64,000 bases of DNA from Halorubrum alkaliphilum (lineage in GTDB: Archaea > Halobacteriota > Halobacteria > Halobacteriales > Haloferacaceae), in NCBI RefSeq assembly GCF_017873815.1, contig NZ_JAGGKQ010000006.1, positions 1-64,000 of the forward strand, written 5' to 3'. The notes under the pieces were generated by a model. That model did no database searches, was not told where the DNA came from, and was given only the letters and a program-made list of their open reading frames with translations. Every line of letters begins with the position of its first letter. Positions within the stretch are counted from its first letter, which is position 1. Both the position numbers and the translations under genes were made by a program. Positions 14,843 through 21,032 of the stretch are shown here, piece by piece.

Positions 14843-17140
14843 ATGCCAAACGATCAGCGGTCGGCGGAGACTATCAACGAACGGCGACGGCGTCTGCTCA
14901 CGGGGGCGGCGGGTGGGCTGACCGTCGGCGCGCTCGGGCTCGGCGGGGCCGGAAGCGCGGCCGCCACCGACGAGGACACGCTGACTATCGTCCACGACAC
15001 GCACTTCCACGGGCGGTTCGAGGACGCCGACGACCCCGAAAAGGAGGTCGCACGGTACCAGACGCTCGTCGACGAGATCCGTGAGGAGTACCCCAACGCG
15101 CTCTATCTCGGCAACGGTGACGACCTCGCGCCTTCGGTTCTCGGACTGGAGTTCGAGGGTGCACACATGATCGAGGCGATGAACGAGATGGACATCGACG
15201 TCGTCGGCGCCGGTAACCACGAGTTCGACTTCGGCGTCGAGACCGCCGAGGAGCGCTTCGAGGAGTCGGCGTTCCCGTGGGTGATTGCCAACCTGCTCAC
15301 GCCCGACGACGAACCGGTTCCGGGCGCGGAGCGCTGGACGACCGTCGAAACCGAGGACCACACCGTCGGCGTGTTCGGGATGGGAACGAGCGGGTTCCAC
15401 GACATCACCGACTATCCGGACGACTGGCAGGTCCTCGGCTACGAGGAGGCCGCACGGGACGCGGTGGAGGCGTTAGAGGAGGACACGGACTTCATCGTCT
15501 GTGCCTCACACGCCCCCTCCAGCGCGCATTCGACGATCGCCGCTGTCGACGGCGTCGACGCGGTCGTCGGCTCCCACTCCGGGATCGTCTTCGACGAGCC
15601 GGACGAGAGCGAGAACGGCGTCGTCTCGGAGTTCGGCGACGAGTTCGACCACCTCGGCCGGCTGACCTTCGAGGTCGACGACGCGGCGCTGACCGACTGG
15701 GAGCGACTGGACCTGTACGACTCGGAGGCCCTCGACGAGGACGAGTTCCCCGAAGAGACCGATCACCACACTCCGGTCGACGTACGGGATGTCGAGCGCG
15801 ACGACGAACTCGCGGCGATCGCCGACGAGTATCTCGACGAGCTGGAGGAGCGACTGGGGGAGTCGATAGTCGACAGCGAGATCGAACTGGACGCTACCTT
15901 CGCCAACTACGAGGCCGAGACGAGTTGGGGCAACCTGATGACCGATGTCATGCGCGAGGTCGACCGGATCGTCGACGTGGACCGTGAGATCGAGGTGGCG
16001 GTCCAGAACGCGGGCGGCATTCGGTCAGACGCCACCTACGGCCCCGGCGAGATCACCGGTAGCGACGTGATGGACATCCTCCCGTTCCCCAACGAGATCG
16101 AGGTGTGGGAGGTCGACGGGTCGACCATCCGGAACTACCTGCTGTGGGCGACCCGAGCGATGCCGGACGACTTCGGTGCCCAGCCCGCGATCCAAGTATC
16201 GGGACTCTCCTACGAGTGGAACGGCCACGACGACGGCTGGGAGGAAGGGGACGACGGCTACCCTGAGGGCGACGTGTACGAGGTCTTTGTCGGGGACGAA
16301 CCGCTTGACGAGGACGAGACGTATCTGCTCGCAACCAACGACTTCGAGGCGGATCGCAGTCCCATCGCGGAGGAGGGCGAACTCGTCGTCGAGTCCGGAC
16401 AGTTCCAGGGGCCCTTCACGATGGACTACCTCGAGGAGGAGGTGGACACGGTCGCGCCCGAGGTGGGCCACCGGATCGTCCGCGTGGACGAGGACGTAGG
16501 CGAGGCGGACCTCGCCGCCGACGGCAGCGTCACGGCGACGTTCCCGGTTCCGGAGGGTGCGGCGGAAGTCGTCGACGACGGCTTCCGTGCCGTCTCGCGG
16601 ACGCAGGCGGTCGCCGAGGCGACGAGCGTCGAGGTCGACGGTGACGAGGTCGCCGTCACGTTCGACGCCGACGAACTGCTCGCGCTCGCGGAGGTCGACG
16701 ACCCGCACGTCCGTCTGTACGGCCACTTCGATCCCGACGAGACCTATTACGGCTACGAGGACGGCGGCGAGCTGATCGACCTCCCGGCGAATCCGAGCTA
16801 CGAGTTCCACAAGCTGAAGACGTCCGTCTCGGACGAGGAACTTGACGCCGTCATCGCCGCGCTCGACGACGAGGACGACGGCGACGCTGATGATGACGGC
16901 GACGCTGACGATGACGGCGACGCTGATGACGACGGCGACGAGGACGACGGCGACGCTGACGACGGCGACGCTGACGACGACGGCGACGCTGACGACGGCG
17001 ACGCTGACGGCGAGACGGGAGACGTCGAGGACGACGTCCCCGGGTTCGGTCCCGCAGCCGGGGCTGCTGGCGTCACCGGCGCGGCGTATCTCTACAGCAA
17101 GTACGGCGCTGACGACGGTGATGAGCCGGTTGACGGCTAA
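14843..17140 (+). CDS. Secreted 5'-nucleotidase / metallophosphoesterase with PGF-type anchor
   Basis: 765 aa. A Tat signal (RRRRLLTGAAGG, residues ~14-25) is followed by a calcineurin-like domain (~40-270) with metal-binding DTHFHGRF, GNGDDLAPS, GAGNHEFDFG and SHAPSSAHS. The 5'-nucleotidase C-terminal domain (~330-530) contains VQNAGGIRSDATYGPGEITG. An unassigned beta region comes next, then an Asp/Gly-rich repeat (DDDGDAD units, DNA 16870-17018), and PGFGP plus a hydrophobic segment at the end, a PGF-CTERM-like surface anchor. It should release phosphate and nucleosides from nucleotides outside the cell. The Asp-rich stalk probably spans the cell wall. Confidence 0.9.
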   Translation: MPNDQRSAETINERRRRLLTGAAGGLTVGALGLGGAGSAAATDEDTLTIVHDTHFHGRFEDADDPEKEVARYQTLVDEIREEYPNALYLGNGDDLAPSVLGLEFEGAHMIEAMNEMDIDVVGAGNHEFDFGVETAEERFEESAFPWVIANLLTPDDEPVPGAERWTTVETEDHTVGVFGMGTSGFHDITDYPDDWQVLGYEEAARDAVEALEEDTDFIVCASHAPSSAHSTIAAVDGVDAVVGSHSGIVFDEPDESENGVVSEFGDEFDHLGRLTFEVDDAALTDWERLDLYDSEALDEDEFPEETDHHTPVDVRDVERDDELAAIADEYLDELEERLGESIVDSEIELDATFANYEAETSWGNLMTDVMREVDRIVDVDREIEVAVQNAGGIRSDATYGPGEITGSDVMDILPFPNEIEVWEVDGSTIRNYLLWATRAMPDDFGAQPAIQVSGLSYEWNGHDDGWEEGDDGYPEGDVYEVFVGDEPLDEDETYLLATNDFEADRSPIAEEGELVVESGQFQGPFTMDYLEEEVDTVAPEVGHRIVRVDEDVGEADLAADGSVTATFPVPEGAAEVVDDGFRAVSRTQAVAEATSVEVDGDEVAVTFDADELLALAEVDDPHVRLYGHFDPDETYYGYEDGGELIDLPANPSYEFHKLKTSVSDEELDAVIAALDDEDDGDADDDGDADDDGDADDDGDEDDGDADDGDADDDGDADDGDADGETGDVEDDVPGFGPAAGAAGVTGAAYLYSKYGADDGDEPVDG

Positions 17141-17275
17141 TACGGGCTCAAACGGCGAGCGATCCGGGATCGGCCAGCACGCAACCGGCCACGATCGAGC
17201 ACCGTCGACGGGCCCGCGCCATGTCCCGCCGACGCGCTCTTTAGTGTGAGACGCCAACTGACGACCACGACACGA

Positions 17276-18610
17276 ATGAACCTCCCGGATCCCGACTCCG
17301 TCCCGCGCCGCGAGTTCTGCAAGGCCGCCGTCGCGCTCGGCGGTACCGCCGGCCTGAGCGCCTGCCTCGGCGTCGGCGACGACCGCGACAATCCCGGCGA
17401 AACCGCAGCCCTGAGCGGCGTCCCCGCCGGCGATCCGGAGTCGGTTCCGGAGCGCCAGCACGCGTGGAACGACGTGCTCGAACGCGACGAGAGCGGGAAC
17501 GTCGTCGCACCGACACACCACGTCCTCCGGTACTGCTCGGTCTCGGACGACCTCGCGGCCGCCATCGACGACGGCGACGCGGGGGCGGTCGACGACGCCC
17601 GGGAGCGGTTCGCGGACGCGCTGAGCGATATCGAGCGTGGCTTCGAGTGGTCCAACGAGGGGCTGTTGTTCACGGTCGGCTACGCACCGGCGTACTTCGA
17701 GCGGTTCGACGGGAGAAGCGAGGGGCCGGCGGGGGTAGACCTCCCCGAGCCGACGGCGCTCACGTCGATGGAAGACCCGGGGTTCGACACCGCGGACGTG
17801 CTCGTCCATCTCGCGAGCGACACTCCCGAAGCGGTGCTCGCGGCCGAGGAGGCACTGTTCGGCGGGGCGGACGCCGCGAACGGCGAGCCGGTGACCGACG
17901 TGACGGACCTGTTCGACCCGGTCGACCGCCGGACCGGCTTTCTCGGGCCGGGGCTTCCACGGGAACACCGGGACGCACAGGGCGTTCCGGACGACGCGCC
18001 GATCCCGGAGGAGGCTCCGCTGTTCATGGGGTTCAAAAACGGCTTCGCCGGGTCGCAGGCGACGGAGGACCGGGTGACGATAACGGACGGACCGTTCGCC
18101 GGCGGGACGACCGAGCACGTCTCGAAGCTACAAACGCAGCTGAACGCGTGGTGGAACCAAGAGAACCACCACCAGCGCGTCGCGAAGCTGTTCAGCCCGA
18201 CCCATGCGGCGGAGGAGCGGGTCGGCGAGTGGGGTGAGAAACTCGGCTCGAACCCGGCCGTGGCCGACCTGCCGGAGGACGCGATCGAGTTCGCCCGCGA
18301 GGAGGGCGTCGTCGGCCACGCACAGAAGGCTGCGCGAGCGCGCGACGAGGACGGGACGCCGCCGCTCCTCCGTCGCGACTTCCCGACGACGGACGGCGAC
18401 CATACCGGACTCCATTTTCTCACCCTACAGGAATCGATAGCCGACTTCGTTCGCGTCCGCGAAGCGATGACCGGGAGCGATCTCGCCGACGAGAGCGGCG
18501 TCGGGTCCCGACTGAACAACGGGATCCTCCAGTACGTGTTCGTCCGACGGCGGGGGAACTACCTTGTCCCGCCGCGGACGCATCGATCGCTTCCCGAACC
18601 GGATCCCTGA
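17276..18610 (+). CDS. Tat-exported DyP-peroxidase-like protein (DUF7405 type)
   Basis: 444 aa from ATG 17276; CTCTTTAGTG about 30 nt upstream may be the TATA. The start (PRREFCKAAVALGGTAGL, then SAC) is a Tat signal with a lipobox-like Cys. The C-terminal half follows the DyP fold: GFKNGFAGSQ stands where DyP enzymes have GFxDGxxN (Asp replaced by Asn); a His near residue 348 (VVGHAQKAARAR) fits the proximal heme ligand; then come LLRRDFP and LHFLTLQESIADFVRVRE. Family knowledge: EfeB-type DyPs act in ferrous-iron or heme handling. Whether this one still has peroxidase activity is unclear. First of three tightly spaced genes. Confidence 0.7.
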   Translation: MNLPDPDSVPRREFCKAAVALGGTAGLSACLGVGDDRDNPGETAALSGVPAGDPESVPERQHAWNDVLERDESGNVVAPTHHVLRYCSVSDDLAAAIDDGDAGAVDDARERFADALSDIERGFEWSNEGLLFTVGYAPAYFERFDGRSEGPAGVDLPEPTALTSMEDPGFDTADVLVHLASDTPEAVLAAEEALFGGADAANGEPVTDVTDLFDPVDRRTGFLGPGLPREHRDAQGVPDDAPIPEEAPLFMGFKNGFAGSQATEDRVTITDGPFAGGTTEHVSKLQTQLNAWWNQENHHQRVAKLFSPTHAAEERVGEWGEKLGSNPAVADLPEDAIEFAREEGVVGHAQKAARARDEDGTPPLLRRDFPTTDGDHTGLHFLTLQESIADFVRVREAMTGSDLADESGVGSRLNNGILQYVFVRRRGNYLVPPRTHRSLPEPDP

Positions 18611-18627
18611 GAACGACGACACCACTC

Positions 18628-20127
18628 ATGACGAATCAACGCACCGACGACGACGGAACCGATACGTCCCCGAACGACCGAACCGATACGTCCCCAAACA
18701 ACCGAACCGATGCCGATCCACGCGGGATGGTCGAAGGCGGACCCATGAGCCGGCGGACGATCCTCGGCGGCGTCGCTCTCGGAACCGCTGCCCTCGCCGG
18801 CTGTGCGGACGAGGACGGTGATCCGGAGGACGACGGCGGCGACGCTGACGACGACGGCGATGACGACGCCACCGGAGAGGACGAGTCCGACGAGGGCGGG
18901 GCCCCTGCGCTTCCCTCGGTCGACGATCCGCCGGACGCGACGTATATTCCGACCCACTTCGAGGCGATGCGTCACCTCGACCCGATCGAGGCGGGCGAGT
19001 TCGAGGTGGAGCCGATGGTGACGTACCCCCATCGGTTCTGGAACGTGACGGGCCGCGAGGTCGAGGCGGCGGAACCGAGCGGGAGCGACGACGTCCACCT
19101 CATGGTGGCCGTCCGCGATCCGGAAACGGGAGCGGTCCTGCCGGCCGAAACGGGGCTGGAGCTGAACGTCGGACTGGAGGGCGAGTCGAAGACGCCACAC
19201 GCCCCGTGGCCGATGATCTCTCAGGAGATGGGGTTTCACGTCGGCGACAACGTCCCGCTCGGCGAGGACGGAACCTACGAGATCGAGGTCCGGGTCGGGA
19301 GCATCGACGCCCGCCTCACGGGAGAGTTCGCCGGTCGGTTCGACGAGGCCGGCCGCGGATCGTTCACGTTCGAGTTCGACGGGGAGTTCCGCGACGAGGT
19401 CGTCGGCGGGATCCACTACCTGGACGAGGAACACTGGGGGAGACACGGCGCGCTCGCGAACCACATGGCCGGAAGCCACGGCGACCACGGGGATGGCGAA
19501 CACGGCGAACACGGCGACGACGACCACGGAGGTCACGGCGACGACGACCACGGAGGTCACGGCGACGACGACCACGGAGGTCACGGCGACGACGACCACG
19601 GAGGTCACGGCGATGACGACCACGGCCACGGGGACGCCCACGATCACCGCGGGGAGGAGCGGTGGTCGGTCGGCGAGGGACACCACCGGTTCGGCACGTA
19701 CCGCCGGGGACCTGACGAGGGCGAGGTCCCGCTCCCGGACGACCTGCCGGGGAGCCTCCTCGGGGAGCCGGCCCTCGCGGATGCGGTGTATCCCGCAACG
19801 GTACTCGACCGCGGATCCCGGTTCGTCGACGACGACGCGTTCTATCTTGCGGTGTCGCCGCGGACGCCGTACAACCGCCTGATGCTCCCGATGATGGCGC
19901 TCGACTACGCCGTCGAACGCGACGGCGAGGTCGTCGCCGAGGGGTCGCTCCGGGACACCCTCGATCACGAGGTCGGCTATCACTACGGAACGGCTCTTGA
20001 CGAGCTCGAAACGGGCGACGAGCTGTCGGTGACCGTCGAGACGATCCCAAACGTCTCCAGACACGCCGGCTACGAGACGGCGTTCAACGAGCCAGGCACG
20101 GTCTCGTACACGATCGAACTCCCATGA
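18628..20127 (+). CDS. His-rich lipoprotein of the P19/iron-transport-like class (DUF7350 type)
   Basis: 499 aa from ATG 18628, 17 nt after the previous stop; M40 (MSRRTILGGVALGTAALAGC), an ideal Tat-lipoprotein start, may be the real one, as the first 39 residues are low-complexity. After the lipobox Cys comes an acidic linker, a beta-rich domain (~105-280: VHLMVAVRDPETGAVL, APWPMISQEMGFHVGDNVPL) like the periplasmic P19/Tp34 metal-binding proteins, a linker of HGDDDHGG repeats (~285-335), and a second beta domain (RTPYNRLMLPMMALDYAV). It likely binds a transition metal, probably iron or copper. Its stop overlaps the next gene (ATGA). Confidence 0.7.
   Translation: MTNQRTDDDGTDTSPNDRTDTSPNNRTDADPRGMVEGGPMSRRTILGGVALGTAALAGCADEDGDPEDDGGDADDDGDDDATGEDESDEGGAPALPSVDDPPDATYIPTHFEAMRHLDPIEAGEFEVEPMVTYPHRFWNVTGREVEAAEPSGSDDVHLMVAVRDPETGAVLPAETGLELNVGLEGESKTPHAPWPMISQEMGFHVGDNVPLGEDGTYEIEVRVGSIDARLTGEFAGRFDEAGRGSFTFEFDGEFRDEVVGGIHYLDEEHWGRHGALANHMAGSHGDHGDGEHGEHGDDDHGGHGDDDHGGHGDDDHGGHGDDDHGGHGDDDHGHGDAHDHRGEERWSVGEGHHRFGTYRRGPDEGEVPLPDDLPGSLLGEPALADAVYPATVLDRGSRFVDDDAFYLAVSPRTPYNRLMLPMMALDYAVERDGEVVAEGSLRDTLDHEVGYHYGTALDELETGDELSVTVETIPNVSRHAGYETAFNEPGTVSYTIELP
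19510..19629 (+). repeat. 24-bp tandem repeat encoding HGDDDHGG
   Basis: Four identical 24-bp units (cacggcgacgacgaccacgg + aggt) run from 19510 to 19605 with a fifth, diverged unit to 19629. The identity at DNA level suggests recent expansion and possible length variation between strains. The product is a His/Asp-rich metal-binding-type linker. Confidence 0.85.
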
Positions 20128-21032
20128 CCGACCGGGGCGGAGGCAGTCGTGAGAGCGGGTCCGCCGAGGAGGGGCGGCGAGTTCGGCTCGCGTCGGCTCT
20201 CGCCCTGTTCGCGCTGCTCGCCGCCGTCTTCGGGATCGCGCTGGGTGCGGGCGGCGCGTCGGCCGGCGACAACACCGCCGTGGTCGGGTTCGAGCCCGAC
20301 GAGGCGTCGGTCGAACCCGGCGACACCGTCGACGTGGACGTGACGCTCCGAAGCCACGGGGATCCCTTCGGTAGCGGGATCGCGGACGTCGAGCTCCACC
20401 TCGACTATCCGACCGAGTACCTCTCCGTGACTCGTATCGAGCCCGGTAGCTGGTTCGAGAACGCGCCGGACGGCGATCGGATCGGCGAGGGACAGTCGGA
20501 CACGGAGGTCCGCGAGCGGATCGTGTACGCCGACGAGAACGGTGCGGCGCTGTTCGAACAGTCACTCGCCACCCCCGAGTTCGGCGTCATCGGGGCGGCG
20601 ACCGTCGCTCGGGTGACCGTCGAGGTGAGCGAGGACGCCGACGCGGCGAGCGCGCAGCTCACGGCCGAACGAGCAGGCGTATACCCGACCCGCAGCCGGG
20701 AATCACAGGAGATCGCTGTGCTGCCCGCCGAGTTCCACGTCGACGGCGGCGGCGACGTCGTCGAACCGGCGTTCGTGGACGACCCCTTCGCCGACGTCGA
20801 CGAGGAGGAAGCGAACGAGGGGGTAGATGAGGGATCCGATAGCAACGAGGGGGCGAGCGCGACCGACGAGGCGGACGGCGGATCGGGCGACGCCAACGGA
20901 GCGACGGACGACCCGACCGCAGCGGAGGCGGCCGGAGACGAAGCCGATGACGACGTGCCCGCGCCGCTCGGCGCGGTCGTTCTCGGCGTTCTGTTGGCGG
21001 CGTTCGGGCTCCGCCGTCGAGCGGGAGAGTAA
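20124..21032 (+). CDS. Cohesin-like surface protein with C-terminal membrane anchor
   Basis: 302 aa, ATG overlapping the previous stop by 4 nt. A membrane/signal helix (about 22-45, ASALALFALLAAVFGIALG) is followed by a cohesin-type beta domain (~50-200: VVGFEPDEASVEPGDTVDVD, VELHLDYPTEYLSV, ...ATVARVTVEVS). Then come an Asp/Glu/Gly stalk and a final hydrophobic helix, PAPLGAVVLGVLLAAFGLRR. This is a wall-anchored extracellular domain. Cohesins bind dockerins elsewhere; no dockerin is evident here. Coupling to the DyP-like and P19-like genes suggests it is the surface scaffold of the same system (inference). Confidence 0.75.
   Translation: MTDRGGGSRESGSAEEGRRVRLASALALFALLAAVFGIALGAGGASAGDNTAVVGFEPDEASVEPGDTVDVDVTLRSHGDPFGSGIADVELHLDYPTEYLSVTRIEPGSWFENAPDGDRIGEGQSDTEVRERIVYADENGAALFEQSLATPEFGVIGAATVARVTVEVSEDADAASAQLTAERAGVYPTRSRESQEIAVLPAEFHVDGGGDVVEPAFVDDPFADVDEEEANEGVDEGSDSNEGASATDEADGGSGDANGATDDPTAAEAAGDEADDDVPAPLGAVVLGVLLAAFGLRRRAGE

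Follow-up and report, generated by a model that had tools for sequence, protein, structure and literature searches.

A three-gene locus for predicted surface proteins

We analysed a 64,000-nucleotide (nt) stretch of Halorubrum alkaliphilum DNA (contig NZ_JAGGKQ010000006.1, positions 1 to 64,000; hereafter the window), in which three closely set genes encode a DyP-fold protein of the DUF7405 family, a P19-like lipoprotein of the DUF7350 family and a membrane-anchored cohesin-like protein (Table 1). The tight spacing given in an initial annotation made from the sequence is correct: a gap of 17 nt separates gene 2 from gene 1, and gene 3 overlaps gene 2 by 4 nt (ATGA). All three genes are on the same strand. 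That annotation had proposed a coupled, metal-related set of exported DyP-fold, P19-like and cohesin-like proteins that is undescribed as such, and our results support this. The folds, conserved residues, gene order and neighbouring genes reported below were established by computation. Taken together, we lean towards regarding the three genes as an extracytoplasmic copper-handling unit for cuproenzyme assembly rather than as an iron uptake system of the EfeUOB type. Counts of invariant residues refer to 40 relatives unless another number is given, and counts of gene order to 80 named loci.

Table 1. Genes and sequence features at the locus (aa, amino acids; Tat, twin-arginine translocation; TM, transmembrane).
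Feature	Position	Strand	Basis
Possible haloarchaeal TATA box, TTTAGT, 31-36 nt upstream of the start ATG of gene 1	17240..17245	+	from the sequence
Gene 1, DUF7405, DyP-fold predicted Tat lipoprotein, 444 aa	17276..18610	+	Pfam PF24152, E 3.7e-147
Twin-Arg R11-R12 to lipobox Cys30 (LSAC30), Tat lipoprotein signal	17306..17365	+	RR/KR-x17-C in 40/40 relatives
N255, at the place of the DyP catalytic Asp (GxxDG)	18038..18040	+	hhalign with EfeB; residue count over 100 sequences
H348, equivalent of the heme proximal His (EfeB H329, SHIR motif)	18317..18319	+	invariant, 40/40
R366-R367, equivalent of the distal Arg (EfeB R347 = R366, first Arg of LRRG)	18371..18376	+	invariant, 40/40
Gene 2, 499 aa, DUF7350 Tat lipoprotein with a His-rich linker between two P19-like domains	18628..20127	+	Pfam PF24041, E 1e-51
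P19/FetP/FtrA-like domain 1, invariant H157, M159, M196, M201, H204	18955..19398	+	VIA, hhalign, conservation
His-rich linker with HGDDDHGG repeat	19429..19725	+	composition
DUF7350 domain, putative second P19-like domain lacking most metal ligands	19738..20109	+	hhalign
Gene 3, cohesin-like, Sec-type signal and C-terminal TM anchor, 302 aa	20124..21032	+	

A predicted DyP fold without the catalytic aspartate

The predicted structure of the gene 1 product (predicted local distance difference test score, pLDDT, 86.8) matched DyP peroxidases in Foldseek (E 3.2e-15). Its best match in the PDB was E. coli EfeB (VIA Z 26.5, root-mean-square deviation 3.3, 307 residues aligned), tied with other EfeB/DtpA-type entries. 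Pfam Dyp_perox_C matched 18 of the 40 relatives and exceeded its cut-off on DUF7405 genes of other genomes. The model thus presents gene 1 as a true DyP-fold protein, with EfeB/DtpA-type proteins as its predicted nearest kin. In common with EfeB and the A-type (class I) DyPs it has the fold, Tat export, the proximal His and the distal Arg; unlike them, DUF7405 lacks the Asp of GxxDG, shares only about 16-20% identity and forms a haloarchaeal clade of its own. Tat export had already been assigned to this protein. Because the RR/KR-x17-C arrangement is kept in all relatives, we predict that it too is a lipoprotein, and its spacing fits the rule of 12-21 between twin-Arg and lipobox Cys (PMC2945643).

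To number the active site we took the key residues of EfeB to be D235, H329 and R347. The GFKNG of gene 1 (residues 252-256) aligns with GFKDG of EfeB; therefore the Asp-to-Asn change that had been read from the sequence is real. Of 100 relatives, 79 have Ser at this position, 13 Ala and 5 Asn. None has Asp, and a canonical DyP peroxidase identity was rejected on that ground. The proximal-His region, initially described as retained, indeed keeps H348 without exception. The roles of the Asp, His and Arg residues are those given for DyPs in PMC8197335, where the D171N change in a fungal DyP abolished formation of compound I; normal peroxidase chemistry is therefore unlikely for gene 1. Judged from its sequence, DUF7405 probably binds heme.

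A tandem P19-like lipoprotein with a candidate copper site

The initial annotation described the gene 2 product as a Tat lipoprotein of P19-like character carrying an HGDDDHGG repeat (at about 19471-19655), and each of these features was borne out. Domain 1 (residues 112-257) matched the FetP and HftA structures (VIA Z 12.9) and, by hhalign, Azospirillum FtrA (96%, E 3.3e-9). With E values of up to 0.1 allowed, Pfam Iron_transport matched 40/40 relatives; the window protein scored below the cut-off. The copper ligands of P19, which we take to be H42, M88 and H95, are kept as H157, M196 and H204, each in 40/40 relatives, while H132 of P19 has no clear counterpart. The acidic patch that holds iron or manganese in P19 is formed by E3, E44, D46 and D92 (PMC9174327). 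In gene 2 E44 is replaced by Met159 and D92 by Met201, both in 40/40 relatives, and D46 mostly by Thr or Ser. By these residues, the domain 1 site resembles a copper site more than an iron site.

The C-terminal DUF7350 domain appears to be a diverged, degenerate copy of domain 1. Their kinship rests on sequence profiles (hhalign 95.7%, E 9.7e-9), the fold matches of domain 2 being weak (Z <8). The linker that joins them is Met-rich (EPMxMxM) in most relatives and contains 7.1% Met and 10.1% His, versus 3.1% and 2.5% elsewhere. With P19, FetP and FtrA the protein has in common the fold and copper ligands of domain 1; it differs from them in the replacement of the iron-site acids by Met, in the second domain fused through a Met/His linker and in having no FTR1 partner. 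Counts of gene 2 homologues were made with a score cut, since the acidic and His repeats otherwise draw in 5'-nucleotidases.

The cohesin-like protein

Against the Pfam cohesin model gene 3 scored 21.6 bits, below the cut-off of 24.1, and the profile of its family matched cohesins in the PDB (E 3.5e-6). The cohesin-like, membrane-anchored character given to it initially thus stands; the C-terminal anchor carries a PGF motif in most relatives and PAP here. A scaffold of the cellulosome kind is unlikely because the gene is accessory, being third in only 28/80 loci (nearly all with the identical 4-nt overlap), and because no dockerin was found in the Halorubrum alkaliphilum genome (97.7% complete), in agreement with the initial annotation; the latter result led us to reject it. 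Similarity to cellulosomal cohesins lies in the sequence. Unlike them, gene 3 has a single domain and is not near sugar-degrading genes. Among the 116 Halobacteria sampled for dockerins and FTR1, 45 have some dockerin, and one genome of the same order (G002) far exceeds its relatives, with a minimum of 50 dockerin domains (75 candidates).

Distribution and gene order

Among 292 sampled Halobacteria genomes, DUF7405 was present in 261 and DUF7350 in 254, and Haloferax volcanii carries both. Outside the order, DUF7405 was not found among the matches listed in the phylum sample. In 64/80 loci DUF7405 and DUF7350 share a strand with DUF7350 downstream, and in 52 of these the distance is at most 200 nt; this coupling is well above chance. 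The initial annotation had looked to conservation of the three-gene order across haloarchaea; this held for genes 1 and 2 and failed for the cohesin gene. DUF7405 and DUF7350 therefore make up a real, conserved pair of haloarchaeal lipoproteins to which the cohesin-like gene is an optional third. Within Halorubrum the pair is patchy and its members tend to co-occur: among the matches listed, 9 genomes have both genes, 5 and 1 have a single one and at least 19 have neither (Fisher p 3e-4). We found no mention of DUF7405 or DUF7350 in the literature searched, and nothing relevant on haloarchaeal DyPs.

Neighbouring genes in relatives

In several relatives, genes for SCO proteins and their associates lie beside the pair. 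A divergent cassette of SCO1/SenC, redoxin and a CcdA-like protein adjoins DUF7350 in 6 loci from three genera of one family, and a divergent SCO gene with a CxxxCP motif adjoins DUF7405 in 14 loci from two genera. In a genome of another family (G021), SCO, redoxin, DUF7405 and DUF7350 stand in tandem. Two further genomes (G245 and G158) have the arrangement redoxin-CcdA / DUF7405 / SCO, and a third (G224) has DUF7350-membrane protein / SCO-redoxin-CcdA. A CtaA/CtaB-type gene adjoins DUF7350 in two loci. The SCO, redoxin, CcdA-like and COX neighbours link the pair to the assembly of copper sites and oxidases.

A 10-TM protein (for example L098:5972-7480), present in 207 of the 292 genomes, carries four conserved His within its TM segments or close to them; it had no match in Pfam or the PDB. 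SCO genes number among its neighbours. Of 20 loci centred on this protein, 11 have it beside DUF7350, a figure biased upward because these loci were taken from high-scoring matches. Cytochrome oxidase genes (COX1-3) lie beside it in 7 of the 20 loci, and in L153, versus 2 of 100 DUF7405 loci. We did not find the 10-TM protein in the window's genome or among the listed members of the genus.

The FTR1 permease (PF03239) was found neither in the window's genome nor in any of the 116 Halobacteria; four control genomes were positive. The absence of an EfeU-type permease noted initially is thus a property of the sampled class, and iron uptake through FTR1 was rejected. EfeUOB and FtrABCD resemble the haloarchaeal set in that an exported protein, a DyP (EfeB) or a P19 (FtrA), is combined with a function in metal handling. 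Having DyP and P19 together is a different gene content, and because the EfeU/FtrC permease is absent the set is neither of these systems.

The initial annotation had pointed to iron or heme uptake. In a pathway of the EfeOB/P19 kind the DyP-like protein would oxidize Fe(II) or strip heme of its iron; a permease, possibly the 10-TM protein, would then receive the iron from the P19-like protein. EfeB is the closest structural match to gene 1, bacterial P19 proteins serve iron transport, all gene 2 relatives match Iron_transport and the 10-TM protein pairs with DUF7350. Against this, the acids of the P19 iron site have become invariant Met, FTR1 is missing (0/116), the DyP Asp, whose change in D171N kills compound I (PMC8197335), is lost, the 10-TM protein is missing from the window's genome, and SCO and COX genes are neighbours in several relatives. 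We consider iron uptake unlikely.

In about 20/80 loci, nearly all from Natrialbaceae (L078, L083, L091, L099 and about 16 others), menB lies directly upstream of DUF7405-DUF7350(-cohesin) and menA, menC and menE downstream, mostly on the same strand. Such an arrangement would suit a menaquinone-linked redox chain at the cell surface, in which the DyP-fold hemoprotein draws electrons from the quinone pool. The link to men genes is, however, absent in the other families that hold DUF7405. Nor do we know of a precedent for a lipoprotein DyP that oxidizes quinol at the outer face, and we regard this chain as improbable. Equally doubtful is a role in supplying heme, or in its quality control, during oxidase assembly, with the Asp-less DyP fold as a carrier instead of an enzyme: the retained heme-ligand His beside the lost Asp, the CtaA/CtaB and COX neighbours and the four His of the 10-TM protein agree with it, but alone it leaves the invariant Arg and the P19-like copper partner unexplained.

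Two other neighbours were observed. A regulator of the HVO_0163 type with two domains and a helix-turn-helix lies directly upstream of DUF7405 in 22 loci (L079:9353-9877 and 21 others) from Haloarcula, Halosimplex and others; its ligand could reveal the metal or signal that controls the DUF7405 genes. In the window, a gene just upstream of gene 1 and on the same strand (14843-17140) encodes a 5'-nucleotidase/UshA-like product that is Tat-exported and carries DDGDADDDGDADD repeats; L061-L065 have a homologue of it upstream of DUF7405, and L093, L103 and L108 have one near DUF7350.

A possible route for copper delivery

The closest parallel is the sco-ecuc-SLI_4212-dtpA operon of Streptomyces lividans, which encodes a Tat-exported DyP (DtpA), the copper lipoprotein ECuC, a SCO protein and a putative copper transporter, and which has a copper-responsive gene for a cohesin-domain protein adjacent to it; in dtpA and sco mutants the copper enzyme GlxA is not matured at low copper (PMC4736821). 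On present evidence the haloarchaeal set may work like this pathway, with the P19-derived protein replacing ECuC. Both have a Tat-exported DyP, a copper lipoprotein (putative in haloarchaea) and a cohesin protein, and several haloarchaea have SCO beside DUF7405/DUF7350. They differ in the P19 ancestry of the haloarchaeal lipoprotein, in the loss of the DyP catalytic Asp and in the lack of an adjacent SCO gene in the window.

For the copper-handling unit that we favour, we infer copper as the ligand, heme binding, the direction of transfer and the role of the cohesin-like protein. The DUF7350 lipoprotein would be a P19-derived copper binder with its His/Met site in domain 1, the degenerate second domain standing in for the dimer partner of P19 and the Met/His-rich linker collecting copper. 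It could hand copper on, probably through SCO1/SenC, to copper sites, for instance CuA of cytochrome oxidase or those of halocyanins. DUF7405, a DyP-fold hemoprotein without the peroxidase Asp, would act as the redox partner, for example by controlling whether copper is Cu(I) or Cu(II), or by electron transfer, as has been proposed for Streptomyces DtpA. In Halorubrum and Natrialbaceae the membrane-anchored cohesin-like protein may hold the parts together at the surface.

Several observations weigh against copper. The His-rich repeats of gene 2 are compatible with Zn or Ni as well, and, to go by the title of Chan 2020, bacterial P19 reportedly requires its copper site yet serves iron transport. 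The SCO adjacencies are not independent events, because few genera supply them, and a search of the SCO-like proteins at DUF7350 loci for a simple CxxxC motif did not find it. No copper gene is adjacent in the window, the one SCO found in its genome being on another contig, and about 20 Natrialbaceae have menaquinone genes as neighbours instead of copper genes. Heavy-metal ATPases near some copies (L098, L101, L174) look like the Zn/Cd type, and copper ATPase neighbours were dropped as support.

A wider proposal, which we put forward tentatively and with rather less than even confidence, is that copper reaches the respiratory cuproenzymes throughout haloarchaea by a route made up of an Asp-less DyP-fold hemoprotein, a tandem P19 with a Met/His copper site in place of its former iron site, SCO and the undescribed 10-TM protein. 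If this is true, the association of DyP, SCO and cohesin would be found in actinobacteria as well as haloarchaea. Each of DUF7405 and DUF7350 is present in nearly 90% of the sampled Halobacteria, yet neither has an assigned function. Should the copper reading be correct, they would provide a route by which copper reaches the cytochrome oxidases and halocyanins of haloarchaea, in which P19, an iron-uptake family, has been turned to copper and the DyP fold has been kept without its peroxidase Asp.

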